From Halioglobus sp. (GTDB lineage: Bacteria > Pseudomonadota > Gammaproteobacteria > Pseudomonadales > Halieaceae): a stretch of 52,701 bases of DNA. This document shows, one piece after another, positions 1,860-14,211 of the stretch. Within the stretch, counting starts at the first letter, position 1. Every line of letters starts with the position of its first letter. The notes under the pieces are model-generated. The model saw only the letters and a list, made by a program, of their open reading frames with translations, was not told the origin of the DNA and did not search any database. The DNA is taken from NCBI GenBank assembly GCA_020443325.1, contig JAGRIK010000013.1, forward strand, positions 1 through 52,701, given 5' to 3'. Both the position numbers and the translations under genes were made by a program.

Positions 1860-2501
1860 ATGGGAATTGGAAGAATGATTAAGGGATCAAAAGATTACAA
1901 GCACTATTTTTCCAACAAGGAAAGAACAGTAGCGTACTTGAATCTCCCCAAATGTGGCTGCTCGTCAATCAAAACCTATCTGGCGTCATTTCCAGATGGA
2001 AGCAGTGAAGATATACACTCAAAATCGTATAGGGATAAGTTCTATCTACCTGCCCATCAAGTTCAAAACACGTCTGTGTTTACATTTACTTTTGTAAGAA
2101 GCCCTCAAAGCCGCTTCCTATCTTTCTACAAAGATAAAATTTTACGCTGGGACAAAAATATTTCGGTCACGATGAACAAGAACGGATTTTCAGAAGCAAT
2201 GAGTATTGACCAAACTATTGATGTTCTATTTTCCAATCAACCCGAAGTGCTTGAACCACATATTCGCCCAATGTCGCTTATTATTTATGACCAGGAGGGT
2301 TACCAATATGCGGAGTATATTGGTAAATTGGAAACATTCCGGCAAGATATCACCGTGATCGAAAAGCGAACAAAAGTTCCATTTCGAATTGAAGATAAAA
2401 ATGTTTCAAGCAAAGCTGCTAATTACGCTCAGCTGACTGAACTACAGGAGAAGCGAATTAGAGAATTTTTTGATCAAGATTACCAAGCATTCGGTTACTA
2501 A
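1860..2501 (+). CDS. Sulfotransferase family 2 protein (carbohydrate sulfotransferase-like)
   Basis: Predicted to transfer sulfate from PAPS to a sugar acceptor. Near the N-terminus (about residues 28-38) is the 5'-phosphosulfate loop NLPKCGCSSIK, and at about 78-92 the 3'-phosphate motif FVRSPQSRFLSFYKD; this pair is the signature of the Sulfotransfer_2 family. The 213-residue length is at the short end for that family. No signal peptide is seen, so it probably acts in the cytoplasm on a lipid-linked glycan. An in-frame TAG lies directly before the ATG, so the start cannot be further upstream. The stop is one base before the next gene's ATG, implying translational coupling. Codon and base usage are much more AT-rich than the leftward neighbours, which suggests transfer. 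The acceptor is unknown. Confidence 0.82.
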   Translation: MGIGRMIKGSKDYKHYFSNKERTVAYLNLPKCGCSSIKTYLASFPDGSSEDIHSKSYRDKFYLPAHQVQNTSVFTFTFVRSPQSRFLSFYKDKILRWDKNISVTMNKNGFSEAMSIDQTIDVLFSNQPEVLEPHIRPMSLIIYDQEGYQYAEYIGKLETFRQDITVIEKRTKVPFRIEDKNVSSKAANYAQLTELQEKRIREFFDQDYQAFGY

Positions 2502-2502
2502 C

Positions 2503-3468
2503 ATGGACAATAGTGAAGATTGGCATATCGAAGGGCCCGTTCTCGTTACGAAAACAGGAGAGCTATTCCTCGTTGGTGGGCAGCATCCAGTGTTTGTGAA
2601 GGATTCTTCTCAAGAACTAAAAATTGAAGACTCCAGTAAAAATAACCTGGTTCGAAATATAAGCAACCGCAAAGCGATTTTCCAGAAAAAGGATATTCTT
2701 TATAAGCATGTTGTATTTCCTGACAAGCACAATGTGTATAGCAAACAGTTTCCAATCGATGTTGAAAGTTTGATGTCAAAATATATTGGACATCCAGGAT
2801 ATCCGTCGGATGACGTAATATATCCTATCGATAGACTACAAGAACTGGGAAAGCCCTCATTTATCCGAACAGAAACACATATGACAGAGTATGCCTGCCA
2901 CGAACTAGCGCATTATTTTTTGTCGGAAATAGATTCGCAATTTTGCACGCCAAAGCTGAGCCTTACTTACAAGAATGCAACTATCGAAGGGGACTTGGGT
3001 ACAAAACTCCAGCCAAAACGATATTCAATAATAGAGATCGCATCAAGGCCAAAAGGGATCAAACGCTGGACTAATGGCATAAGTGGCAATGACGGCCTGA
3101 TGGATATCTATCAAAACATCAACACGGATTATCGAAAACGAATTCTGATTTTTGGCGACTCATTTTTCAGAACAATAGCCGAGTTTATGGCTATGTACAG
3201 TCCTCAGGTCACATTCTGTCGCAGCCGTTATGTCCACTACGAACTTGTTACATCAATCAAGCCAGACATAGTGTTCAGTGGTAATGTCGAGCGGTATTTG
3301 TCTTTCGTAAACTCTGACGCTGTGAGGCCAAATTTTCTTTTATATCCGCAGCTAAACAATCAACAGGTCAACCCAAGTGAAGGATTCTGGAAAGCATTAA
3401 ATGCATTACTATCTTACGGACGACCAGGCTATAAGGCCTTCTTCGACGGCACCCAGGCAACGGAATAG
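2503..3468 (+). CDS. AlgX/AlgJ-like SGNH-fold protein (putative glycan O-acetyltransferase)
   Basis: A 321-residue protein with features of the SGNH domain found in alginate acetylation proteins AlgX and AlgJ. The nucleophile block is ILIFGDSFFRT (GDS at about residues 218-220). A TETHMTEYA stretch at about 123-131 stands where these proteins carry the DxH pair. The segment after the serine (EFMAMYSPQVTFCRSRYVHYEL, through VFSGNVERYL) has the usual layout of this group. The order of the TETH and GDS blocks, with TETH first, matches AlgX/AlgJ. No signal peptide or membrane segment is evident, unlike classic AlgX/AlgJ, so export is unclear. A start at TTG 2470 is possible, but ATG 2503 couples better with the preceding stop. 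AT-rich like its partner. The function assignment is by motif only. Confidence 0.6.
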   Translation: MDNSEDWHIEGPVLVTKTGELFLVGGQHPVFVKDSSQELKIEDSSKNNLVRNISNRKAIFQKKDILYKHVVFPDKHNVYSKQFPIDVESLMSKYIGHPGYPSDDVIYPIDRLQELGKPSFIRTETHMTEYACHELAHYFLSEIDSQFCTPKLSLTYKNATIEGDLGTKLQPKRYSIIEIASRPKGIKRWTNGISGNDGLMDIYQNINTDYRKRILIFGDSFFRTIAEFMAMYSPQVTFCRSRYVHYELVTSIKPDIVFSGNVERYLSFVNSDAVRPNFLLYPQLNNQQVNPSEGFWKALNALLSYGRPGYKAFFDGTQATE

Positions 3469-3494
3469 ACGCATCCCTCCATCAGGCGGTCTGC

Positions 3495-4724
3495 CTAAGG
3501 CAGGGAATCATAAACCTCAAGGTGCAAGCGTGTGGCATCGTCGATACGGGGATACTCTGGCAATGACGCGTGTAACTGCCCATGCAGATCGGGCTCGTCT
3601 ACGATGCGTTCTATCAATGCCGAAAGCGCGATGCTGTCACGGGCGCGGTAATGCAGGCCGCCGACGCCTGGGCGTACTTTTTCTGCCATGCCACCAATAT
3701 CCGGACATAGAATCGGTCGACCGAATTTGTAGGCCTCTTGGATCACCAGCGGCGAATTTTCCCACCACACAGAACCCATCACCACCCAATCCACGTCTGC
3801 CATCAACCGGCCCATTTCCTCGGGCTCATAGGGTCCATGAAGATGCACTGCGTCCTTGCACTTCGCGAGCAGCCCATTGATCTTTTCCTGGAACTCTGGT
3901 TTTTGATCGCTTAGGCCCGAGCCGAATATGTCCAGGGTGACGCGTTTGCGCACACTTTTGGGTAACCGCGCAAAGGCTTCCAGTATCACGTCAACTCCCT
4001 TGTAGGGATTGATCTGTCCGAAAAAAGCAAATCGACCTCGAGTGTCGCCAGCGTTTAGCGTTCGCAAGGGGACACGTTCGCCGAGAGGAAGGCCATTCTC
4101 GATCACACTGACTCGCGCCGGATCAAGGCCCCACGCCACATAGCGATCGCGAAGAAATTCGCTGGGCGATATGAATTGGTCTACCAGCCTGAAGAAACTT
4201 TTGATGTACTGTTCACGTAAGAAAAAATCCTCGGGCGAAACATCAGGGAAACACAAATGGCATTCACGGGGACTGTACTTATGGCATAGCCGTCCATCCG
4301 TTTTCACCATCTGTCCGTTGTTCGTACAGATCGCAATATACTCATGTAGCGTCATCACAATGCGCGCCGAGGGACAGACATTCCTAACCAACCTGATTAG
4401 ATCTATACCCAGGTGCACATAATGATGGAAATGCACAACGTCCGGATCGATTCGTCGCAGTAGCTGCGCGATGTCACTGTCCGGCCCCAAGGGCGTGCCG
4501 GCGATCAGATCCGCTATTCCGGCGTCTCCGGCAATGAGGTAGTCACGCTCGCCGATCGCACCGAGCGTCGTGAACTTGTGCATCACCTTGGAATCGCTGC
4601 GGCCAATGAACCAAGCCTGATGTTCGGGTGTCTGGTCTATTCCCTGCCACAGATAATAGGCAGCAAACTCCCCACCGCCCTTGCTGAACACCGGGTGCGC
4701 ATGACTGAAGATAACGACCTTCAT
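3495..4724 (-). CDS. Glycosyltransferase family 4 protein
   Basis: A retaining GT-B glycosyltransferase, 409 residues. The N-terminal domain opens MKVVIFSHAHPVFSKGGGEF, a glycine-rich acceptor-side loop. The C-terminal nucleotide-sugar domain contains SVIENGLPL, FAFFGQINPYKGVDVILEAF, and the EX7E region in ENSPLVIQEAYKFGRPIL. Four cysteines (CTNNGQ...LCHKYSPRECHLC) follow HEYIAIC; a similar cysteine group occurs in the GT4 gene at 9535. The ATG overlaps the stop of the preceding GT2 gene by four bases (ATGA), so the two are translationally coupled. The donor and acceptor sugars cannot be read from the sequence. It converges with the SGNH gene. Confidence 0.88.
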   Translation of the reverse strand: MKVVIFSHAHPVFSKGGGEFAAYYLWQGIDQTPEHQAWFIGRSDSKVMHKFTTLGAIGERDYLIAGDAGIADLIAGTPLGPDSDIAQLLRRIDPDVVHFHHYVHLGIDLIRLVRNVCPSARIVMTLHEYIAICTNNGQMVKTDGRLCHKYSPRECHLCFPDVSPEDFFLREQYIKSFFRLVDQFISPSEFLRDRYVAWGLDPARVSVIENGLPLGERVPLRTLNAGDTRGRFAFFGQINPYKGVDVILEAFARLPKSVRKRVTLDIFGSGLSDQKPEFQEKINGLLAKCKDAVHLHGPYEPEEMGRLMADVDWVVMGSVWWENSPLVIQEAYKFGRPILCPDIGGMAEKVRPGVGGLHYRARDSIALSALIERIVDEPDLHGQLHASLPEYPRIDDATRLHLEVYDSLP

Positions 4725-7700
4725 TCACTAACCTCCAGAGTCAGCGGATCAAAAATATCACCCGCACGGATCTTTTCCATATAACGCCAACCATTGAAAA
4801 GTGTAACCATCTGTCGTTCACTGACCGTCTGTCCGAAGTTCTGTGATTGACGCTCCAGATGCCATAAACGTGCTTCAGGTACTAGCCACATGCGTTTGCC
4901 TCGTTTGCGCAAGGCCAGGCAGAGATCCGAATCCTCGAAATCGCCGATAACATAACCCTCGTCGAATCCGCCCACTGCATCGAAATCGCGCTTCCTCAGC
5001 ATCAAACATGCGGCAGTCAACATCGGGTGCTCGGATGGTGTTTCTCCTCCTTCCCAGACCATGCCCATACCCTTGTGGGTATTTAGAAGGAATCCTGGAT
5101 AGATATCCTCGACACGAGGATACATGCCCGCGTGCTGTACCGACTCATCGCCAAACAGAAGCAACGGCCCAACGGCCCCTGCATCAGGTAAATCGTGCAG
5201 CGCATTAGCCAGAGTGGAAATCCAGCCGGGGCGTTGCGGGATGACATCTGAATTGACAAGTAGGAGATTTTCTCCTCGTGCGGCAAGGGCTCCAATGTTG
5301 TTGGCTCCGGCGAATCCCCTGTTTTCACCGTACCACAATACCCGGAAAGGAACGCCGAACAATGGCGCATAACGCGCGGCGAGCTCAAGAGTTTCGCTCA
5401 CAAGTGAGGGATCATCAACCACGTACAGCAACTCGGTGTGTGCAAAATCCGGATCGTCGACAAACTGGGCGAGTTGATGGCGCAGAAAATCACAGCGACC
5501 ATAGAGCGGCACAATGACAGAATTCGTTGGGGCCGCGAGCGGGGCACCGAACTGCCGTTCCACAACAGCCCCGTCGAAGTGCGAACGGCTTCGATTGACC
5601 GCCTCCAAGGCTGCGCCAAGACCGCCGCTGAACAATCCGTAGAGTGTGTGTCGCATGCGATCAGCCGCAGGGATCGCTCCAAGCACGCTCTTGATGAGGC
5701 CGACCGCGGTGGTCTGATGCCTTTCGGTAGGCACCCTGAACCATACCTCGCCTTGCTCACCGAAATCGAAACTTAGAGCGCGACCCTCGCCGGGTAACGT
5801 GGGCATCGCTGCGAAGCAGACGTACCCCAACCATTCATCAATCTCCGGAAACCGCGACTGAAAAGACTGGAACACATCGGGTCGCACCAGTCTCGTGAAA
5901 TTTCCAGTGACCTCGAGAACTTGCCCGTCGTCGCTGCGCAGTGTCACGTGCTGCGCCTTGCGTATCGGAGTCAAGCTCCAACCGAAGATTAGAATACCCA
6001 CATCACCCAACACGTAGGCACTGTCAACAGCGCCGATCATCGTTTCAGGATTCTCGAAATAGAGGGGCAACTGCGGATATCTCGCCTCAAACGCGTAACG
6101 TCGCAGCAACTCGATAGGGACCTGTACGCGAACGCCCTCGCGTTCAAGCGAGGAGACATCGGACAGCAATTCGACCAGTGGCCTTTCCAGCTCGGGAATC
6201 TCGCCGACCAGAATCGCTATGTCTCTCCAGTCGACTGCAGTTGGACTCAACCTGCACGATTGCCGTTGCCCATCGCTGCCCACCACCCGAATCCGAAGAC
6301 TTTGTCCAATCAGCTCTGCATCGTCAATCAACAGCAGAAATCCCCCCGGATTCACGGCAGTCCAGGAAAATCGCTCCACCATGTCCGAACGCATTGTTCG
6401 ACGCACGCGCGATGTGACATCGAAATTGCCTTTCGATGTCACTAGTTCCACACGACTCAGGTTGTGCTGATCGAGTCCGATCCATCCATAGACGAGTAAG
6501 ACTCTACCCTTCAGCACGCAGGACTGATCGCAAGCAAAAATGGAAGCGTGCGGATCCTGTCCGATCAGCTCTTCCTCATACTCGTCGATGCAGGTTTCGA
6601 AGAGCCCTGTTTCATCAAGTGCGACGCCGATCGCATCCAATGCATCGCGACATCGTTTCGGCGGCAGTAACTCTAGCAGCTGACGCACGAGACGAGGTCC
6701 TTCCAGTGCTTCCGGCGCCACAGGCACCTTCAGCCAAACTTCGCCCGGATCATCGAAGCCCAGGCATAGCGCCCGCACATCACCAGGGCGGGTCGGGAGC
6801 GGTGCAACGCAGACGAAGCCGCACCAGTCGTCACGATCAGCAAACTGGCTTTGATACTTTTCGCACGCATCGGGCCGAAACACCGGATTGCAACGTGACG
6901 TGATGTCGATACACTCTCCATCTGGGCCGCGCAGCAGGATTGCTCGCAGTTTTCGCCCGGGCGTGAGATTGAAGCCATAAAGTAGCAATCCGGCGGCGCC
7001 CAGAGGATACGCCCATTCAACAGCAGTTATCGCTGTCGTAGGCTGATCGACCAACAAAGGAAGATACGGTACTTGCGCGAGGAAACAGTTACGGCGCAAT
7101 ACCGCCAACCGCTTCGCCACGCGACCGGATCCATCATCAATATTAGGAGCCTGCTCCAGAAGGTCTAGCAAAGGCCAGGCAAGGTCTAGATAGTTATGCA
7201 ACAATGATCCCAGGCCATCCCAGCTCATACTCTGAAGATCGCATTCGAGGACCTGACGCATGCCGGAATGGCAGACCACATTAATGGTCAATACATTCGT
7301 GGCGCCGACGTCCAGCGGAAAGGCGCACAGGAAACCCAGCGCCTGGGCTTCCGACCAGGGATGCGCCGCATAAAGATCTGGCCGCTCATAGCGCACAATC
7401 CGTTCCGTGATATCGGTGATCCTGCCCCTGACGACTACTTCGATGCGATCTAACTCCGCCAACGGCTTAGAAATCCAGCCATTGATGATCAGCACACGAC
7501 TCGCGACCAGTAGTGCATGATCGCACGCCGCAAAACTGTATCTCGCGCCGACCGCAGAGTCCTGATCTTCGAGTCCCTCGACAAGCCTCGTAAGGGAATT
7601 TTGCTCGCCGAGCATGCTCCGGAGCATATCGAGCAAGGTAGGGCCCGAGTGGCTCCAGTACTGTGGAAGCGTCGACCGGATTTCAGCCCTATTATCCAAG

Positions 7701-8134
7701 GCGTTGAAGGGCAGCTCTGCGCAACGGCCATCGACCAGCATCAGCGCCAGTTTTGCCCCTGTGCCAAATCCGGGAACCACAATGACGAAGCCGTAGTTGA
7801 TGAACATCGTCAAATCGTCTCTGTCCATCGCCTGCGCTACGTCCGGCCGGGCAACTCGCTTGGATTCGATGTGCATGTCGCCGACAGTACAAATATCCAT
7901 ACTCGGCGCATGTTGCGCCACGACACCATGGCGTGGGTCGCGAATGACGTCGAATCCTTGCACCTGATTCTGCGGATCGTAAAGCCAACCGATGAGAGCG
8001 ACATCACCTTCATCCGATATGCACGCAAAATCGACGTATGCCCTGACCGGTTCGAGGCTGGCAAGACTTGTCAGTCTTGCTGCCAGAACCTCGACGTTAA
8101 CTTCAGAATCGACTTCTTCCGCGTCACCATCCAT
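4721..8134 (-). CDS. Large GT2 glycosyltransferase with five tandem N-terminal modules
   Basis: 1137 residues. The last about 270 (from NSVIVPLYGRCDFLRHQL at about 872) form a GT2 glycosyltransferase: NRGFAGANNIGA, the metal/nucleotide motif VNSDVI at 960-965 and the acceptor-side GDFEDSDLCLALRKRG at about 1064-1079. The first 850 residues hold five copies of a module I do not recognise. Each has a strand ending in GW or GF (positions 50, 220, 388, 551, 719, period about 167), then an R-P/S-D motif (97, 252, 421, 583, 752), then a strand such as GFVCVAP or GYVCFAA. Copies 3 and 5 are closest to each other. Helical linkers of about 60 residues join them. No signal peptide. The modules may be beta-sandwich glycan-binding or scaffolding units; that is inference. 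Coupled to the following GT4 gene. Confidence 0.85.
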   Translation of the reverse strand: MDGDAEEVDSEVNVEVLAARLTSLASLEPVRAYVDFACISDEGDVALIGWLYDPQNQVQGFDVIRDPRHGVVAQHAPSMDICTVGDMHIESKRVARPDVAQAMDRDDLTMFINYGFVIVVPGFGTGAKLALMLVDGRCAELPFNALDNRAEIRSTLPQYWSHSGPTLLDMLRSMLGEQNSLTRLVEGLEDQDSAVGARYSFAACDHALLVASRVLIINGWISKPLAELDRIEVVVRGRITDITERIVRYERPDLYAAHPWSEAQALGFLCAFPLDVGATNVLTINVVCHSGMRQVLECDLQSMSWDGLGSLLHNYLDLAWPLLDLLEQAPNIDDGSGRVAKRLAVLRRNCFLAQVPYLPLLVDQPTTAITAVEWAYPLGAAGLLLYGFNLTPGRKLRAILLRGPDGECIDITSRCNPVFRPDACEKYQSQFADRDDWCGFVCVAPLPTRPGDVRALCLGFDDPGEVWLKVPVAPEALEGPRLVRQLLELLPPKRCRDALDAIGVALDETGLFETCIDEYEEELIGQDPHASIFACDQSCVLKGRVLLVYGWIGLDQHNLSRVELVTSKGNFDVTSRVRRTMRSDMVERFSWTAVNPGGFLLLIDDAELIGQSLRIRVVGSDGQRQSCRLSPTAVDWRDIAILVGEIPELERPLVELLSDVSSLEREGVRVQVPIELLRRYAFEARYPQLPLYFENPETMIGAVDSAYVLGDVGILIFGWSLTPIRKAQHVTLRSDDGQVLEVTGNFTRLVRPDVFQSFQSRFPEIDEWLGYVCFAAMPTLPGEGRALSFDFGEQGEVWFRVPTERHQTTAVGLIKSVLGAIPAADRMRHTLYGLFSGGLGAALEAVNRSRSHFDGAVVERQFGAPLAAPTNSVIVPLYGRCDFLRHQLAQFVDDPDFAHTELLYVVDDPSLVSETLELAARYAPLFGVPFRVLWYGENRGFAGANNIGALAARGENLLLVNSDVIPQRPGWISTLANALHDLPDAGAVGPLLLFGDESVQHAGMYPRVEDIYPGFLLNTHKGMGMVWEGGETPSEHPMLTAACLMLRKRDFDAVGGFDEGYVIGDFEDSDLCLALRKRGKRMWLVPEARLWHLERQSQNFGQTVSERQMVTLFNGWRYMEKIRAGDIFDPLTLEVSE

Positions 8135-8705
8135 GAGCCAGATTCTCCTGAGTATCCATCAAAAAGTGCTGCCCAGTATAGGGCGGGGTAACCCAATACT
8201 TTAAACAAATTTCCTGGAAGATTCCATACGCCGAGGCTGATAAGTAGGCAATAGATAGTCTGTGTCGCTACCTGCGCATACGTAGGACTGAGCATTACTA
8301 GCGGCTACAACGAACATTTTTTTTGCGGACAAGGGAACCAGGGCCGGACACTCTATTGGCTTAACGCGAAGATGGCCCTTGAAAAGCCTGCTTCGAATGC
8401 CGTCAGCTCGAGCGACACGCGACCTTGCATGGTCTCGGGATCATTTAAACAAGGGTCAATTTTTCTCGACACATCATCAATACTTCTTATAATTGCCCTC
8501 CGATGCAGGCATCATTGGCAAAACTGCCTATTTTTCTGGTTTCTTATACTGCGACAATGCCAAATCATTGCTGAAACCTGCGCATCTGCCATGAGCCCTG
8601 CGAGCGATAAAGGGCTGGTGGTACCGACGTTATCGTTGTCTGCCTGGAAAATCGCCAGTTCAGCCATGACTAGTGTCTATTCAGAAAAATACATAAACCA
8701 AATTC
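8135..8705. other. Divergent intergenic region
   Basis: This 571-base gap separates the leftward GT2/GT4 pair from the rightward sulfotransferase at 8706. It carries a candidate rightward promoter at 8466-8493 (listed separately). A 128-codon open frame crosses the right part but has no recognisable protein features and overlaps the sulfotransferase start, so it is not called. No inverted repeat or RNA was recognised. Confidence 0.5.
8466..8493 (+). promoter_or_regulatory. Candidate sigma-70 promoter for the sulfotransferase at 8706
   Basis: TCGACA (8466-8471, five of six matches to the -35 consensus) and a perfect TATAAT (8488-8493) are separated by 16 bases. It lies about 210 bases upstream of the ATG, so transcripts would have a long leader. 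Called on sequence resemblance only. Confidence 0.45.
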
Positions 8706-9506
8706 ATGTATACAGAGAATCTAGGGGTTGCAAGTTTGGATATCAAGTTCGGTTTTGATAACACGCCTTTTTTCCTTATTGGCTGTGTCCGATCAGGAAC
8801 TACAATGCTGCGGAACATTTTGAGGTTGCACCCAAGGCTGGAGTCACCTGAAGAAACTCATTTCTTCCGATGGGCTGACCCATACGCCAGCCCGCGATAT
8901 GAAGGTAATTATGCCACCGTAAAGTTATTCAAAAGTCATCGAGCAATTGATGGTGTTAGTGATTTAGATTTTGAACTTTCTAGAGCCCTGGCAAACAACA
9001 GAAAAGACCTCTCTGATTTATACGGAACGCTTTTTTTGCAGGCAAAGAACAATGTAGATGGTCGCTGGTTTGATAAAACGCCGCAAAATATCTACGGGAT
9101 TCTTTTGTTGGGACATATGTACCCTAACGCAAAGTTTTTGCATATACATCGCAACCCGCTTAATGTTGTGTCCAGCCTTAAGGAAGGCCGTGTGATGCCC
9201 AAGCATGAAGTTAAGGGCGGCATCAATTACTGGCTGGAATCCATGATAATGATCAATGAGTATAAGAAAATACCTGGTGCGGAAGCTCGTTTTTATGAAA
9301 TAAAATATGAAGATTTTGTGCTAGATCCGAAGCCTCAAGTTTCGAACATTCTGAATTTTTTGAATGAAGACCCCTTGTTGGTTGACTACTCTAAAATCAG
9401 TACCCACAAAGAAAAAGATAACTACAAAAAAAATCTGACTGAGGAAGATATTTCTACGGTAAAAAAACTTAGCGAACCATTTTATTCACAGTATGGATAC
9501 GCTTGA
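8706..9506 (+). CDS. Sulfotransferase family 3 protein
   Basis: 266 residues with PAPS-dependent sulfotransferase motifs. The 5'-phosphosulfate loop is LIGCVRSGTTMLRNILRLHP (about 24-43), ESPEETHFF follows, DKTPQNIY is at about 123-130, and the 3'-phosphate motif FLHIHRNPLNVVSSLKEGR is at about 144-162. EIKYEDFVLDPKPQVSNILNFL near the C-terminus is also typical (YEDL-type motif). No signal peptide; likely cytoplasmic. It stands alone between two leftward glycosyltransferase blocks and is clearly AT-rich relative to them, so it may be a separate insertion. The product could modify a glycan made by the neighbours, but the acceptor is not known. Confidence 0.85.
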   Translation: MYTENLGVASLDIKFGFDNTPFFLIGCVRSGTTMLRNILRLHPRLESPEETHFFRWADPYASPRYEGNYATVKLFKSHRAIDGVSDLDFELSRALANNRKDLSDLYGTLFLQAKNNVDGRWFDKTPQNIYGILLLGHMYPNAKFLHIHRNPLNVVSSLKEGRVMPKHEVKGGINYWLESMIMINEYKKIPGAEARFYEIKYEDFVLDPKPQVSNILNFLNEDPLLVDYSKISTHKEKDNYKKNLTEEDISTVKKLSEPFYSQYGYA

Positions 9507-9534
9507 AGAGGGATATGATAGCAGCATGCTGGCT

Positions 9535-10758
9535 CTACTCTAAAATAGTACACAGCATGTCCGACAGTTCGCTTGCTTGATCCTCAAAACCCCTGACTTC
9601 AGCGGCCAGAGGATTTCGGTAGTCGCTCCACTTCCTCCAGTCCAAGGCGTGCTCAATGCAATGTCGTAATTCACTTACCCCGCCCCCGAATGGAATTACA
9701 CTGGCATTTACACCATCCTCCAAATCCTCAGAGACCCCGCCTGAGTCAGTAGCGATTACCCAAACGTTTCGTACCAAGGCCTCCCTTACGGTCAATCCGA
9801 AACTTTCCTTCCACTGCGACGGAAACAAAAGCACATCGATACCTGCAAAAAATGTGTCCATGTCATGCTGTCGATAGGGCGGAACAAATTCGACATTCCC
9901 CGGAATTCGCCAATAGTCTCTATCAACCCAACTCGAGCCCACGTTGCCTGCCGCATCCACTACCTGCAATGTATAGTCAGTTCGCTCAGTTTGATTGAAC
10001 GCCTGGATAATCTGCTCTGAACCTTTGATCGCTCCTGGACCACCCACAAAACCAAATACCGTATGGTTGCGCCGCTGCTTCGCTTCGGCTCGCACTTCAA
10101 AGTAATTGGGCAATGGCAAAGTTACACCGTTCTTGTTAACAAACGATTTTTCATCACTAATGCCATTTACCAAATGCAGGTTTCGATGAAAATTGCTCGG
10201 AAACAGCACAAGATCGGCCTTGCCCATCTGCGTCCTGAGATATTCGTTCCGTTTGACCTGCATACGATGATCAATGGAACACTGCCCGCATTGGGCATCA
10301 TTGAGGGCCCACTGGTTACAATAGAAGCCATCGGAATTAATCATGAACTGGCGCTCACAGATCCACCAACAATCATGAGCAGTAATAGCAATTTTGGTAC
10401 CGATTGCCTTAAGCTCATCAAAATAATCACAGCCCAGAACCTGAATGGCATGACAGTGACAAATATCAGCCTGGAATGCCCGCGCGATTTCAACCACACG
10501 CCTGGCGATTTCAGGATGTCGGTACGCGGCTTCGCCCTGTAACTCCGCGGATACGTTAATGGCAACAATATCGATCCCATCAATCTTATAACGCCGCAGG
10601 GCATACTTCGGTAACGAGTGATCCCGTATCGTCGTTACTACCAGAATAGACCAATTGTGTGACTCTTTCAGTCGGCGAGCAGTTTGCTCGACCACTATTG
10701 TCGCCCCCCCAAAACTCTCCGGGGCATAGTACAGATTTAGTATCAGAAGCTTATTCAT
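9535..10758 (-). CDS. Glycosyltransferase family 4 protein
   Basis: A GT-B fold glycosyltransferase. The chosen start, ATG 10758 (MNKLLILNLYYAPESFGGA), overlaps the last eight bases of the upstream gene and gives a protein of 407 residues; an ATG ten codons earlier is less typical of the family. The N-terminal domain has the glycine-rich FGGATIVVEQ loop and HDCWWICERQ followed by a cysteine group (FYCNQWALNDAQCGQC), as in the GT4 gene at 3495. The C-terminal donor domain shows VFGFVGGPGAIKGSEQIIQA and the EX7E region KESFGLTVREALVRNVWVIA. It is the last gene of a coupled leftward set and probably elongates the same glycan. Confidence 0.87.
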   Translation of the reverse strand: MNKLLILNLYYAPESFGGATIVVEQTARRLKESHNWSILVVTTIRDHSLPKYALRRYKIDGIDIVAINVSAELQGEAAYRHPEIARRVVEIARAFQADICHCHAIQVLGCDYFDELKAIGTKIAITAHDCWWICERQFMINSDGFYCNQWALNDAQCGQCSIDHRMQVKRNEYLRTQMGKADLVLFPSNFHRNLHLVNGISDEKSFVNKNGVTLPLPNYFEVRAEAKQRRNHTVFGFVGGPGAIKGSEQIIQAFNQTERTDYTLQVVDAAGNVGSSWVDRDYWRIPGNVEFVPPYRQHDMDTFFAGIDVLLFPSQWKESFGLTVREALVRNVWVIATDSGGVSEDLEDGVNASVIPFGGGVSELRHCIEHALDWRKWSDYRNPLAAEVRGFEDQASELSDMLCTILE

Positions 10759-12046
10759 TGGACAATGCAAATTGATCCAGTAGTTCACGGTCTACCACAT
10801 CGGGACAGGAAACCGTGTGATGCGTTATAACGTTGCTTTTCGCGGCCTGTCCCATCTGCAACCTCAGCTCGCGACTCTCTATCATGCGACTCAACGCGGA
10901 AACCCATTCTTCCTGCCTCTCGGCCAAACACCCGTCGTGCCCATCGTTGACAATTTCGGCAAACTGGCCAACCGATGAAGCCACCGTTGGCACTCCACAG
11001 AGTGACGCTTCAAGGTAGCGAATCGCACTCTTACAGGCGTTAAATCGGTCATTAACCAACGGTACTATATTGATATCCACCTTTCTTAGCGCTTCGAAAT
11101 ACTTTACGTAACCCGAAAACGGACGCGCGTTGATTCTATCACTGAAACGATGCAACTCCGGAGGCATTACCGCATAACCTATCACTTGGAGATTGACGTG
11201 TTCATACATTTCCAGGACCCTAGCCAGTGCTGGGACAACAACCTTGAAGTCCTCGTCGTGTGCTCTCGAACCGGATGCGTACCCAATGGTTACACTGCTC
11301 GCATCACTCAAATCTTTTTCGCAATCCAGATTCTGAGCGATAGAGAGCGTGGCAGAATCCGCCAGATTTGGCCACAAGTACGTGCGCCCTCCAAACTCGG
11401 TTTGCGCCAGCGCCTGCAAATAAGATGTGCTCAGTATAAGTGAATCTGCCCGCCTCATTGCACCGTGATAGTCTTCGGCGCTGGCGAGCAAGTGAGTGCG
11501 TTCATGGGTTGTGAGATGCTGCAGGTTCTTGTTCTCAGCGTAGACATCGACGCTGAAAATCGGGTCATCAATATCGTAGAAGGTTTGTATACCAAGCCTC
11601 GCTGCCTCTTCGAGATATTCGTCAAACTGAGCGCAACTGGGTACACGATAAAAAATGACCGCAGTGGATATTTGCAAATAGCTGATCGCCCGGGCCGCGT
11701 CATTGTAGTGGGAGTAATAGCAGTCCCACCCGAGCGCACCGAAGAATTCAACCTTTTGAGAGACGCGGTACTTCTTGCACTGGGGAAGATCCAGTGCGCC
11801 CACGATTAGAATCGCCGGGCGACCAAATAGATCTGTGGCCCTGCTGACATTGTCAAAGATTTCCCGCCCTCTGCCCCAGGTAGATTTTCGGTATTTGCCT
11901 TTAAAGAACAATCTGCTCCGAAAACTCACCTTCCGCAGGGTTGCGCGCCAACCATATAGACGGATACTGGCCAAAACTGTCGCGGCATATGATCGCCATC
12001 TGAACCCACAGATCGATTGCCACAGTTTTTTAAAGGTCATATACAC
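10751..12046 (-). CDS. Glycosyltransferase, GT4/GT1-like
   Basis: 431 residues. The first 60 are basic and hydrophobic without clear domain features. From about 78 the GT-B domain begins with ILIVGALDLPQCKKYRVSQK, then QTFYDIDDPIFSV, an acidic motif seen in related polysaccharide glycosyltransferases. The donor domain has VTIGYASGSRAHDEDFKVV, IVPLVNDRFNACKSAIRYLE and GVPTVASSVGQFAEIV. The stop overlaps the next gene's ATG. Product and linkage are unknown. It follows the sulfotransferase at 12079 by about 32 bases and is likely co-transcribed with it. Confidence 0.82.
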   Translation of the reverse strand: MYMTFKKLWQSICGFRWRSYAATVLASIRLYGWRATLRKVSFRSRLFFKGKYRKSTWGRGREIFDNVSRATDLFGRPAILIVGALDLPQCKKYRVSQKVEFFGALGWDCYYSHYNDAARAISYLQISTAVIFYRVPSCAQFDEYLEEAARLGIQTFYDIDDPIFSVDVYAENKNLQHLTTHERTHLLASAEDYHGAMRRADSLILSTSYLQALAQTEFGGRTYLWPNLADSATLSIAQNLDCEKDLSDASSVTIGYASGSRAHDEDFKVVVPALARVLEMYEHVNLQVIGYAVMPPELHRFSDRINARPFSGYVKYFEALRKVDINIVPLVNDRFNACKSAIRYLEASLCGVPTVASSVGQFAEIVNDGHDGCLAERQEEWVSALSRMIESRELRLQMGQAAKSNVITHHTVSCPDVVDRELLDQFALSNE

Positions 12047-12078
12047 ATTTACTCAGAAGTCGATTCAATATTACAGTT

Positions 12079-13257
12079 TCATCGACTGAATGGCCATGTA
12101 ACACAACGGCGAAGCAAGACTAACAGCCTCCAACCTTTTGTATTCAGTACAGTTTGGTAATTTTGACTGAGAACTTCATGTTCCCTGGCAAGCAATCGGT
12201 ATTGATCAACAAGCGACTCGTGCTGATCAACAAGCGACTCATGCTGGGCAATCAAGGTATCGCATTTTTCTTGTAGTTGGCCAGACTTTTCACGCTCGCT
12301 GCCGAGCTCTTGGTTCGATCGAATAAGCCGGTGGCGCAAACTGATTATTTTCTTATACGAGTATCCATAGAGGTATTGTAATTCCTGAAGATAGAGCGGC
12401 TCCAACTGCGGCACATCAATATGCTCAATGACACCCTGTAAATCTTCAGGCTGGATACAATCATTCCTGGACAGGAGGTGCAGACGTTCATATAACATCT
12501 GGGCGTAATGCCAAAGTGAGGAATCCTGCCTTTGTGCTGCCTTGACCGGGGTTTGACTCCTGTTCAGCAAGGGATCTACGTATTGGCGGGAAAAACTCTC
12601 TGCTTCATCCGGCGGTATATCAAAACCCAGTAATTTGGCCAGACGCTGGAGCTCCAGCTCAGGTGCCACAACCAGCGAAGTGTAATCTACTATCAGCAGA
12701 TGCCTGGCATCGACTTCCTTTAACGCCTTGTGCAGGTAAGTCCACCACAGCAGGAGTGTCTGGACATTGCGCCTGCCTAGCAAGTGAAAGTCGCTGTCCC
12801 TGATATGCCTGGACCTCTGCGAACGCACAGACTGCTCCGGACTCCTGATCCCCAGGATATAGCTGACTTCAACATCGAGCGCTTCCGACACAACGCGCTT
12901 CCAGAAAGGCAACAGAATACAAAACCGGGGATCTTTGAGTCCCGATACGCTGCTGTTGCTAAATCTATCCCGGATCATGGTGACAGCAGCTTTATGGTAG
13001 GGCTTGAAGCGCTTTGCGCTGAAGTCCTCTTCCCATATAAACCCAAAACTATCCCAGGAAAGACTCAGGCTTCTCAACAGGCGATCATTAAATCGGACGA
13101 TCTCTTCATCTTCAAAAAACCCTTTCGGATTATCATCGTTAGGGTCAATAAATCGATCGCCAAGATTGACACCCAGAGTATGCAACGCACTGGCAACCAG
13201 AGATGTTCCAGAGCGATGGGGCCCAAGAACGAATAGAAATTGGTTCCGTTGTTTCAT
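12079..13257 (-). CDS. Sulfotransferase-like protein with C-terminal coiled coil
   Basis: 392 residues. The N-terminal part has the PAPS loop FVLGPHRSGTSLVASALHTL (about 9-28), GLKDPRFCILLPFW (106-119) and the 3'-phosphate segment LGIRSPEQSVRSQRSRH (135-151), and so is a PAPS-type sulfotransferase domain. From about 300 to 370 comes a heptad-rich coiled coil (RHRLIRSNQELGSEREKSGQ and onward) in which QHESLVD is repeated in tandem. It ends in TKGWRLLVLLRRC, a tail resembling the one that follows coiled coils in some polysaccharide enzymes. The coiled coil may set the size of, or tether, a biosynthetic complex; this is inference. It sits within a leftward glycosyltransferase set. Confidence 0.82.
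   Translation of the reverse strand: MKQRNQFLFVLGPHRSGTSLVASALHTLGVNLGDRFIDPNDDNPKGFFEDEEIVRFNDRLLRSLSLSWDSFGFIWEEDFSAKRFKPYHKAAVTMIRDRFSNSSVSGLKDPRFCILLPFWKRVVSEALDVEVSYILGIRSPEQSVRSQRSRHIRDSDFHLLGRRNVQTLLLWWTYLHKALKEVDARHLLIVDYTSLVVAPELELQRLAKLLGFDIPPDEAESFSRQYVDPLLNRSQTPVKAAQRQDSSLWHYAQMLYERLHLLSRNDCIQPEDLQGVIEHIDVPQLEPLYLQELQYLYGYSYKKIISLRHRLIRSNQELGSEREKSGQLQEKCDTLIAQHESLVDQHESLVDQYRLLAREHEVLSQNYQTVLNTKGWRLLVLLRRCVTWPFSR
12204..12245. repeat. Tandem 21-bp repeat inside coiled-coil coding region
   Basis: Two adjacent 21-base units (12204-12224 and 12225-12245) differ at one base. They encode two consecutive seven-residue units of the coiled coil (QHESLVD), so copy changes keep both the frame and the heptad register. 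Confidence 0.85.
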
Positions 13258-13290
13258 TGCATAAGAACGCTATTACTTAAAAAAATATTG

Positions 13291-14211
13291 TTATGAACTG
13301 CTGGCATCGTATGGCTTCATGTCAAAAGAGTCGATTATACCCCTCAGACTGCTCTTCAGAAGACCAAGCCGGTTTGATTTGAACACAAGTAAATACATAA
13401 ATTTGCAGATAAATCGGAACAGATCATGAACAATCCATGCGGTATTTGTATGGCCTTGCCGGTAAAGCCAGACCCTGTTTCTGGTCATGTAGTAGTTGCG
13501 TGCGTAATCGTGGTAGCGAATCACTGAGTTGGTAAATGGAATCCGGGTGTAAGACTCACCAATTTGCTGACGAATACCCGCGGAGAAATCGCCGTAAATT
13601 TTATACCCCGTGCGACGCGCCCTAAAGCACCACTCCAGATCAACATTGTCGATGAACAGCGCTTCATTCATCCCACCTATTTCTTCGATCGCCTGTATGG
13701 ACATGAGGCAGCCCGAGCTGATCAGAAAATCACATTCGACCTGCTGCTGGCTTTCTACCAATGCCTCGCGGCTGTACCTGGTGTTCGATGGCAACCTGAA
13801 ACGGACGAAAGGCAGCGTATAGCCCGTGTAATCGTCTGTGACCGCTGGGCCGATAGCAGCCACAGGTGCTCCGTATTCGAGCAACCCGTGGAAATCGGAT
13901 ACGAGCACATTGATCAGGTCTTCCGTAATCTGCGTATCCTGATCAAACGCTACGACAAACTGCGCGCCCACCTCTCGGGCCCGCTCGATGACCTGGTTTA
14001 TGCCTCCACTAACCCCCCTGTTGCTGGCATTTCGGATGACCGTGACACCGACAAGACTCCGCAGACACTCCATATACCGGGTATCAGATGAGTCATTATC
14101 AATAACCACGACCCATTCGGCGCTGCCGAGTAAATTTTTAACCAGTGAGGTTAGTTCGGCCACTTTCGGGTTGTGAGCGACAACGCCCGCACACACAGAA
14201 TTTTTTTGCAT
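13291..14211 (-). CDS. GT2 glycosyltransferase, rhamnosyltransferase-like
   Basis: 306 residues of the inverting GT-A (GT2) type. Motifs are VIDNDSSD near residue 40, RNASNRGVSGGINQVI, the DXD-like metal motif VAFDQDTQI, ISSGCLMSIQAIEEIGGMNE, and FIDNVDLEWCFRARRTGYKI. This arrangement resembles the rhamnosyltransferase subgroup of GT2. The hydrophobic C-terminal stretch (FRFICKFMYLLVF) may attach it to the membrane. It begins only seven bases after the stop of the thiolase at 14218, so it could be read through from the steroid operon. The sugar specificity is inferred from family resemblance alone. Confidence 0.85.
   Translation of the reverse strand: MQKNSVCAGVVAHNPKVAELTSLVKNLLGSAEWVVVIDNDSSDTRYMECLRSLVGVTVIRNASNRGVSGGINQVIERAREVGAQFVVAFDQDTQITEDLINVLVSDFHGLLEYGAPVAAIGPAVTDDYTGYTLPFVRFRLPSNTRYSREALVESQQQVECDFLISSGCLMSIQAIEEIGGMNEALFIDNVDLEWCFRARRTGYKIYGDFSAGIRQQIGESYTRIPFTNSVIRYHDYARNYYMTRNRVWLYRQGHTNTAWIVHDLFRFICKFMYLLVFKSNRLGLLKSSLRGIIDSFDMKPYDASSS

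Follow-up and report, generated by a model that had tools for sequence, protein, structure and literature searches.

The window, that is, the whole stretch of DNA analysed here, comprises 52,701 nucleotides from Halioglobus sp. (contig JAGRIK010000013.1 of assembly GCA_020443325.1, positions 1 to 52,701). A gene on its minus strand at 4721..8134, a confirmed open reading frame (ORF), encodes a protein of 1137 amino acids that Pfam and tblastn assign as a WgeB/ExpE2-like modular GT2 glycosyltransferase, in which five related copies of one module precede the catalytic domain. An earlier note, made from the letters of this DNA alone, had taken the C-terminal part of the protein for a GT2 domain, and this is confirmed: Pfam matches glycosyltransferase models alone, from residue 871 onward, with only PF00535 passing its cut-off. 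NCBIfam, run on the whole protein, also returns glycosyltransferase models alone, from residue 849 on and all far under their cut-offs. The catalytic domain is placed at residues 872-1106 (4817..5521, minus strand), with an NSD motif at 961-963 and an EDSD motif at 1067-1070.

Processive GT2 synthases are of the QxxRW type. Both a QxxRW motif and a clear transmembrane span were looked for in the 1137-residue protein and neither was found, and therefore the enzyme looks non-processive; a QxxRW string within the last 300 residues is present in three of 96 GT2-family proteins. Residues 116-134 were considered as a transmembrane helix (Kyte-Doolittle 1.92) and rejected, given that the full-length AlphaFold2 model has beta-strands there. 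Judging from the NSD and EDSD motifs and the lack of both QxxRW and a clear span, the enzyme probably adds single sugars, in what would be a cytosolic setting. Compared with the sequences of solved structures, the whole protein gives weak matches to glycosyltransferases (best E 0.04); two matches inside the module region (E 0.31 and 2.4) were dismissed as being at chance level.

The five modules and their relatedness

All five modules are encoded on the minus strand. Module 1 (type 1; residues 28-159, 7658..8053) is recognised by profile and by tree, and is a beta-sandwich in the full-length model. Self-comparison, tree, profile and full-length model all mark out module 2 (type 2; residues 198-311, 7202..7543). 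Module 3 (type 3; residues 366-483, 6686..7039), in which GF replaces GW, and module 4, the second copy of type 2 (residues 529-642, 6209..6550), are recognised by self-comparison, tree and profile, and are modelled with a block-mean predicted local distance difference test (pLDDT) of about 38-78 and about 35-82, respectively. Module 5, the second copy of type 3 (residues 697-814, 5693..6046), adjoins the glycosyltransferase domain and is recognised by self-comparison, by profile, by tree and in an AlphaFold2 model of residues 685-876.

The modules carry an ordered set of landmarks. The aromatic residue of the GW/GF pair lies at 50, 220, 388, 551 and 719, RPD or RSD starts at 96, 251, 420, 582 and 751, and GF or GY starts at 115, 267, 439, 598 and 770; besides these five sets there are stray motifs, GF at 60, 122 and 459 and RSD at 733. 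The landmark spacing is regular, at 163-170 residues (170, 168, 163 and 168). Recounting of the positions bears out the landmarks and spacing described in the earlier note, and the ordered pattern of GW/GF, R-P/S-D and GF/GY occurs five times in residues 1-860, compared with a maximum of one in 5000 shuffles. Its claim that five related modules are present also holds, since a search with a profile of 102 modules taken from other proteins recovers all five window copies, with domain independent E-values (iE) of 1e-9 to 1e-19. All five are still found if the five nearest relatives are removed from the profile as well (91 modules, iE 1e-8 to 6e-15). The best score among 501 control sequences, one reversed and 500 shuffled, is 9.6 bits, compared with 30-66 bits for the real copies. 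The modules in these profiles were originally gathered by searches seeded with the modules of the window and of the locus L010, such that the profile is free of window letters and not of that selection. The five-module observation is confirmed as real.

The copies are related to one another to different degrees. Copies 3 and 5 share 40% identity over 121 residues (Smith-Waterman z 61), and copies 2 and 4 share 28% over 137 residues (z 24). The next best pair, copies 2 and 5, reaches z 8.8, copies 4 and 5 reach z 5.4, and copy 1 compared with the other four gives z 0.0-2.8. The top self-match offset of the protein, 331 residues, corresponds to a super-repeat. In a tree of 33 modules from 15 of 96 proteins, copy 1 clusters with the first recognised modules of the relatives L047, L051 and L048 (support 98/96). 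The type 2 copies, 2 and 4, join the second modules of L047 and L051 (98/97), and the type 3 copies, 3 and 5, join the modules that come last in L047, L051 and L048 (90/77, under the usual mark). Because of the pairings 3/5 and 2/4, the offset and these groupings, the module order is read as 1-2-3-2'-3', apparently by duplication of a two-module unit. The five tandem copies of the earlier note therefore stand as five related modules but, by z scores and tree, not as like copies. Copy 5 is placed outside copy 3 and its relatives, a placement that would also fit a five-module ancestor with later losses.

Neighbouring genes and the clusters of the nearest relatives

A gene for a GT4 glycosyltransferase (3495..4724, minus strand) overlaps the modular GT2 gene by four bases, and its counterparts in relatives are matched by WgeD and WgeG of Sinorhizobium meliloti. 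Further glycosyltransferases are encoded nearby. Pfam recognises neighbouring sulfotransferases at 1860..2501 (Sulfotransfer_2, plus strand) and 8706..9506 (Sulfotransfer_3, plus strand), and a sulfotransferase-like protein at 12079..13257 (minus strand) matches Sulfotransfer_3 with 26.4 bits, just below the cut-off of 27. The C-terminal part of this last protein has heptad repeats of the QHESLVDQ type, a coiled coil by eye. The protein at 2470-3468 (plus strand) resembles by eye the AlgX/SGNH-type acetyltransferases (RTETHMTEYA, LIFGDSF), has no match in Pfam (E<=0.01) or NCBIfam (E<=0.1), and is weakly similar to ORFs in L121 and L080, the former of which matches the AlgX-like part of a protein in L108.

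The guanine-plus-cytosine (GC) content is 0.40-0.56 for the genes measured in 1860-14211, compared with 0.59-0.61 from 14218 on and 0.58 for bases 1-1500, a contrast that fits a transferred island. Gene directions within 1860-14211 are mixed, and an integrase-type ORF lies at 422-1099. The region 1860-14211 looks like a horizontally acquired island.

Pfam neighbourhood checks of the nearest relatives covered L047, L049, L050 and L051, and the clusters contain polysaccharide-export genes, sulfotransferases or both. Poly_export proteins are encoded in L049, L051 and, as a Poly_export/SLBB protein, L050. L051 has an ABC-2 protein as well, and L050 both an ABC-2 membrane protein and an ATP-binding cassette (ABC) ATPase. 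Sulfotransfer_3 and Sulfotransfer_2 proteins lie downstream in L047, with a Sulfotransfer_4 protein on the opposite strand; a Sulfotransfer_3 protein of L050 (12640-13557) lies about 2.2 kb downstream, and L051 has one Sulfotransfer_2 match, below the cut-off. Additional sulfotransferase-like P-loops in these four loci were seen by eye only, and Pfam gave nothing for them; the sulfotransferase search covered 35 of 39 loci. To an 879-residue glycosyltransferase of the L050 cluster, the window genome has only a partial match, of 26% identity. Sulfated capsules with ABC exporters are described for Cobetia and Vibrio in the available text of PMC11766843 and PMC11641403, to which the window is likened by description alone. 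The product of the window cluster is probably a sulfated surface polysaccharide.

Relatives and other carriers of the module

A tblastn search of plasmids gave 243 records, those listed being from Azospirillum, Phyllobacterium and Sinorhizobium, and none has a single place that covers 80% of the query. On pSymB of S. meliloti, residues 703-1121 are matched with 31.9% identity (E about 1e-40). Ahead of the GT2 gene there are genes for a type I secretion ATPase, an HlyD adaptor and a calcium-binding protein, and after it genes for a methyltransferase and a GT4 enzyme. We take this order to be that of the exp/wge cluster, and the names WgeB, WgeC, WgeD and so on are assigned here from gene order. 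The profile finds the module directly ahead of the GT2 domain in both proteins, at residues 307-388 of S. meliloti WgeB (iE 8e-13) and 703-789 of the window protein (iE 8e-22). WgeB (ExpE2) is given as a beta-glucosyltransferase of galactoglucan synthesis in the available parts of PMC1403797 and PMC3233446, in one of them only as a "potential" one. Sequence similarity relates the window enzyme to this WgeB/ExpE2-type GT2, itself a putative glucosyltransferase. The type I secretion ATPase, HlyD adaptor and calcium-binding protein are present in the S. meliloti and Azospirillum records; none was recognised among the window ORFs scanned, on a contig that ends at base 1, or in the nearest relatives L047-L051, save for a weak ATPase match in L050.

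Relatives were sought with two peptide patterns in one genome per species of 84,980 species, and the best 80 of the resulting 357 confirmed stretches were retained. Nearly all full-length relatives have a recognised module immediately ahead of the GT2 domain. Among 102 GT2-family proteins, a count that includes the window protein and several near-identical Azospirillum rows, seven have no recognised module, 65 have one, 25 have two, four have three and only the window protein has five. The threshold was iE<0.01, and these counts miss degenerate modules and include proteins cut by contig ends and guessed start codons. Recognised modules number three in three of the five nearest relatives and two in the other two. 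The window enzyme is thus a WgeB-type variant whose module array exceeds those of all the other proteins in this count. The differing copy number between relatives and the regular 163-170-residue spacing could suggest a ruler, in which the five-fold array measures the polymer, as the earlier note had proposed. Since the enzyme lacks both a processive-synthase motif and a clear membrane span, the proposal finds no support, and it is very improbable that a chain-length ruler is the role of the array.

The GT4 gene lies directly downstream of the modular GT2 gene in 67 of 80 loci, one gene further downstream in 11 loci of the Azospirillum type, and upstream in L122. No GT4 match was found in L110, the locus of which ends about 150 bases past the GT2 gene. 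The exopolysaccharide II (EPS II) clusters of L039 and L040 contain a pair of modular GT2 genes, and a GT4 gene comes after each, either directly or past a methyltransferase gene. The second modular GT2, at the WgeF place, lies at L039:16146-19685 and L040:15546-17705, and in L039 its open frame continues into the GT4 without a stop. The modular GT2 gene of L056 (1784-3607) is in two pieces, in the same frame and with a stop between them. In L011-L038, which come from same-genus, same-family and same-order genomes, many GT2 matches lie in open frames of 1100-2000 residues. Among the fetched stretches of L001-L038, module matches occur in L009, which is the window, and L010 only, so the large extra parts of the L011-L038 proteins are something else or the modules lie outside the fetched stretch.

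The module also occurs on other proteins. A GT2-module profile finds 18 ORFs without a match to the window glycosyltransferase domain at E<1e-3 among 5892 ORFs, and none in reversed or in shuffled sequences. Profile-profile comparison of the GT2 modules with 12 other modules gives a probability of 98.2% (E 3e-14), a partly selected result in that the second set was found via the first. For both the ORF search and the profile-profile comparison, 12 named other carriers were left out of the GT2-module set and the L137 module was included, so that the score of L137 is not independent. Pfam scans covered all 18 carriers and, of 19 carriers from another search, 18 (all but L098). By Pfam, the carriers include ABC exporter-type ATPases (L089 and L064), a glycosyltransferase of GT92/GT2 type (L065), AlgX-like proteins (L108, L076 and L083, the last fused to a glycosyltransferase) and a fusion of the module with Sulfotransfer_3 and methyltransferase domains (L122:12379-14409), in a locus that also encodes a modular GT2 of 1390 residues with three modules. 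Three of six ORFs that match the AlgX-like part of L108 carry the module. Proteins of about 920 residues in L068 (10817-13573) and L074 (10843-13614) have a module in mid-protein and no Pfam match.

On the ATPases of L089 and L064 the module is C-terminal of the ATPase domain, which best matches solved chains of RfbE and TagH/TarH, plus the ABC transporter chains 8dku and 7k2t, presumably A. aeolicus Wzt; the longest of the L064 matches extends six residues into the module. In the genome of the window, among the candidates scored, module matches occur in the 1137-residue protein only. By these profile matches, the module is not peculiar to the modular GT2 and appears common to several proteins of such clusters.

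Predicted fold, possible role and comparison with known systems

The module alignment (A4, 74 copies) consists of 72 of 79 last-module references, seven near-duplicates having been removed, and two window modules. The full-length alignment (A5, 63 rows) holds the window protein, the five nearest relatives whole, two shorter second copies (L047 and L051) and 55 of the other 74 references. From the 74 sequences, AlphaFold2 predicts residues 685-876 as a beta-sandwich followed by two helices (pLDDT 90.0, predicted template modelling score (pTM) 0.81), and the predicted fold of module 5 is Ig-like, judged by the arrangement of its strands and by the Foldseek matches listed. The full-length model (63 rows; mean pLDDT 78.2, pTM 0.58) has five sets of strands with helices after each, followed by the glycosyltransferase domain; confidence is lower for copies 3 and 4, and the linkers are helical. 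The five repeated units that the earlier note had looked for in a structure prediction can be seen in this model. The top 50 Foldseek matches listed for the full-length model are GalNAc-transferases and B4GALNT1, which are GT-A enzymes.

Foldseek comparison of the module 5 model with the PDB gives no match at E<=1e-3, and the top 50 listed include nanobodies, antibody chains, receptors, the archaellum proteins FlaF/FlaG and a pullulanase. Three matches of module 5 to a viral structure library at E<=1e-3 (low template modelling score, 0.22-0.36) were dismissed as generic beta-sandwiches, and four matches of a profile of 74 modules to solved structures (E 0.035 to 7.4) were dismissed as chance. 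Pfam scans of 74 and 32 module copies recognised no model, with stray matches by one or two members each at E 0.002 or weaker, and a scan of the 32 copies with NCBIfam matched no model (best E 0.023). The module that the earlier note did not recognise thus remains without a Pfam or NCBIfam model, a known glycan-binding family or a PDB match at that Foldseek threshold, and is an uncatalogued accessory domain as far as the scans made extend. Among the entries listed by searches of open-licence papers, neither titles nor the openings of abstracts indicate a description of these modules. The G-W, R-x-D and G-F residues are near-invariant across 74 aligned copies adjacent to the glycosyltransferase and 32 diverse copies.

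The module is tentatively regarded as a putative glycan-binding accessory module, similar to a carbohydrate-binding module (CBM), a reading held to fall somewhat short of an even chance. It is proposed because the glycosyltransferases, modifying enzymes and some exporter ATPases that carry the module share the glycan. The apparently horizontally acquired cluster would make a surface polysaccharide, probably sulfated, for which an apparently non-processive, cytosolic GT2 of the WgeB/ExpE2 type would work with the GT4 encoded right after it. The N-terminal 860 residues would fold into five Ig-like beta-sandwiches with attached helices, at about 165 residues per unit, and the putative glycan-binding module would keep the nascent or lipid-linked chain near the active site, with avidity or reach increased by additional copies. 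Binding of the growing glycan, also suggested in the earlier note, is plausible from the position of the module on two exporter ATPases, but no known binding family was matched. For that note's suggestion that the module organises sulfotransferases, the L122 fusion of module and sulfotransferase is only suggestive. A more specific version appears rather unlikely, namely that in some clusters the module is a common handle on one polysaccharide, by which one chain feature would be recognised alike by chain-building glycosyltransferases, by sulfo-, methyl- and acetyl-modifying enzymes and by the exporter ATPase, with the handle five-fold in the window enzyme.

Several points weigh against glycan binding. 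The other carriers come from loci selected for a GT2 relative, and 11 of the 18 have no Pfam match to indicate a role; one of them, L056:1784-2356, is immediately followed by the L056 GT2 gene in the same frame and is probably the separated front part of that gene. The module is on two (L089 and L064) of 14 exporter-type ATPases, counted as ORFs matching the L089 ATPase domain at E<1e-15, and the exporter-type ATPases of the near relatives L049, L050 and L051 lack it. With no more than 12 candidates scored in each genome, the module was found at E<=1e-4 in at least 12 of 398 genomes of the phylum, that of the window included. No carbohydrate-binding Pfam family matched the 74 and 32 module copies scanned, the near-invariant G-W, R-x-D and G-F residues look structural, and the Foldseek matches of module 5 are generic Ig-like ones, a fold that often binds proteins. 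With no profile-level homology to the Wzt_C domain, the argument from the ATPases is positional only. The net charges of modules 1-5 are -8, -3, -3, +2 and -6, and four acidic modules speak against binding of a sulfated polyanion.

Some of these observations fit the main rival explanation, a docking scaffold in which modules bind each other or partners such as the GT4, modifying enzymes or exporter ATPase, and more copies provide more sites. Within the same clusters the modules are found on several different proteins, their charge is acidic rather than basic, the GT4 gene is an almost constant partner, and Ig-like sandwiches, including the antibodies and receptors in the Foldseek list, are common as protein-interaction folds. 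However, copy number varies as the GT4 neighbour stays, with two or three modules in the nearest relatives and one in most other family proteins. Furthermore, the module profile, run on ORFs that include those of the window, finds no match in the sulfotransferases beside the modular gene, and the module is missing from most of the exporter-type ATPases in these loci. A docking role is considered possible but doubtful. Variable copy number could also reflect a ligand-free array whose sole role is to set the position of the catalytic domain with respect to the membrane or lipid carrier, and the helical linkers and the lower model confidence of the middle units fit such a loose chain. A mere spacer needs neither near-invariant G-W, R-x-D and G-F residues nor reuse on unrelated enzymes, and is thought distinctly unlikely.

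If the module binds glycan, it may give some sugar-coat enzymes and exporter ATPases a common hold on the growing chain. To our knowledge, polysaccharide recognition by exporters and modifying enzymes is an open question outside a few Wzt systems, and a module family linking glycosyltransferases, modifying enzymes and some exporter ATPases is a concrete, testable candidate for it. WgeB of S. meliloti offers a genetic model at hand, and the module family would aid annotation of proteins listed only as glycosyltransferase or hypothetical protein, for example in S. meliloti and Azospirillum records.

The closest known system is the EPS II cluster of S. meliloti, where WgeB and WgeF, named by position, likewise have a module just before a GT2 domain of the same family and GT4 genes nearby. 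WgeB has 749 residues and one module recognised by the profile, whereas the window protein has 1137 residues and five, and the EPS II cluster encodes type I secretion and a calcium-binding protein, neither of which was recognised among the window ORFs scanned; these do include sulfotransferases. Processive GT2 synthases share the GT2 family by Pfam, but differ from the window protein in that the latter has no QxxRW and no clear membrane span.

In Wzt, a domain after the ATPase recognises the glycan cap (available text of PMC9445017 and PMC11231755). Wzt_C (PF14524) is described as a beta-sandwich accessory domain in glycan assembly, the present module is predicted to be an Ig-like sandwich, and the L064 and L089 modules are at the same place after the ATPase. 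Homology was rejected at the profile level, with hhalign probabilities of 0.1-0.4% against 28 Wzt_C sequences in a comparison that had no positive control, and Wzt_C was absent from the Pfam results for the 74 and the 32 modules. The Wzt domains are described in that text on the transporter only, whereas the module is on glycosyltransferases and modifying enzymes as well. The Klebsiella pneumoniae O7 terminator has a predicted Ig-like accessory domain that its authors take as a CBM (available text of PMC11231755), and is alike, by description only, in having such a domain on a polysaccharide enzyme. The terminator has one domain on a methyltransferase-kinase, whereas the window enzyme has five modules on a GT2.

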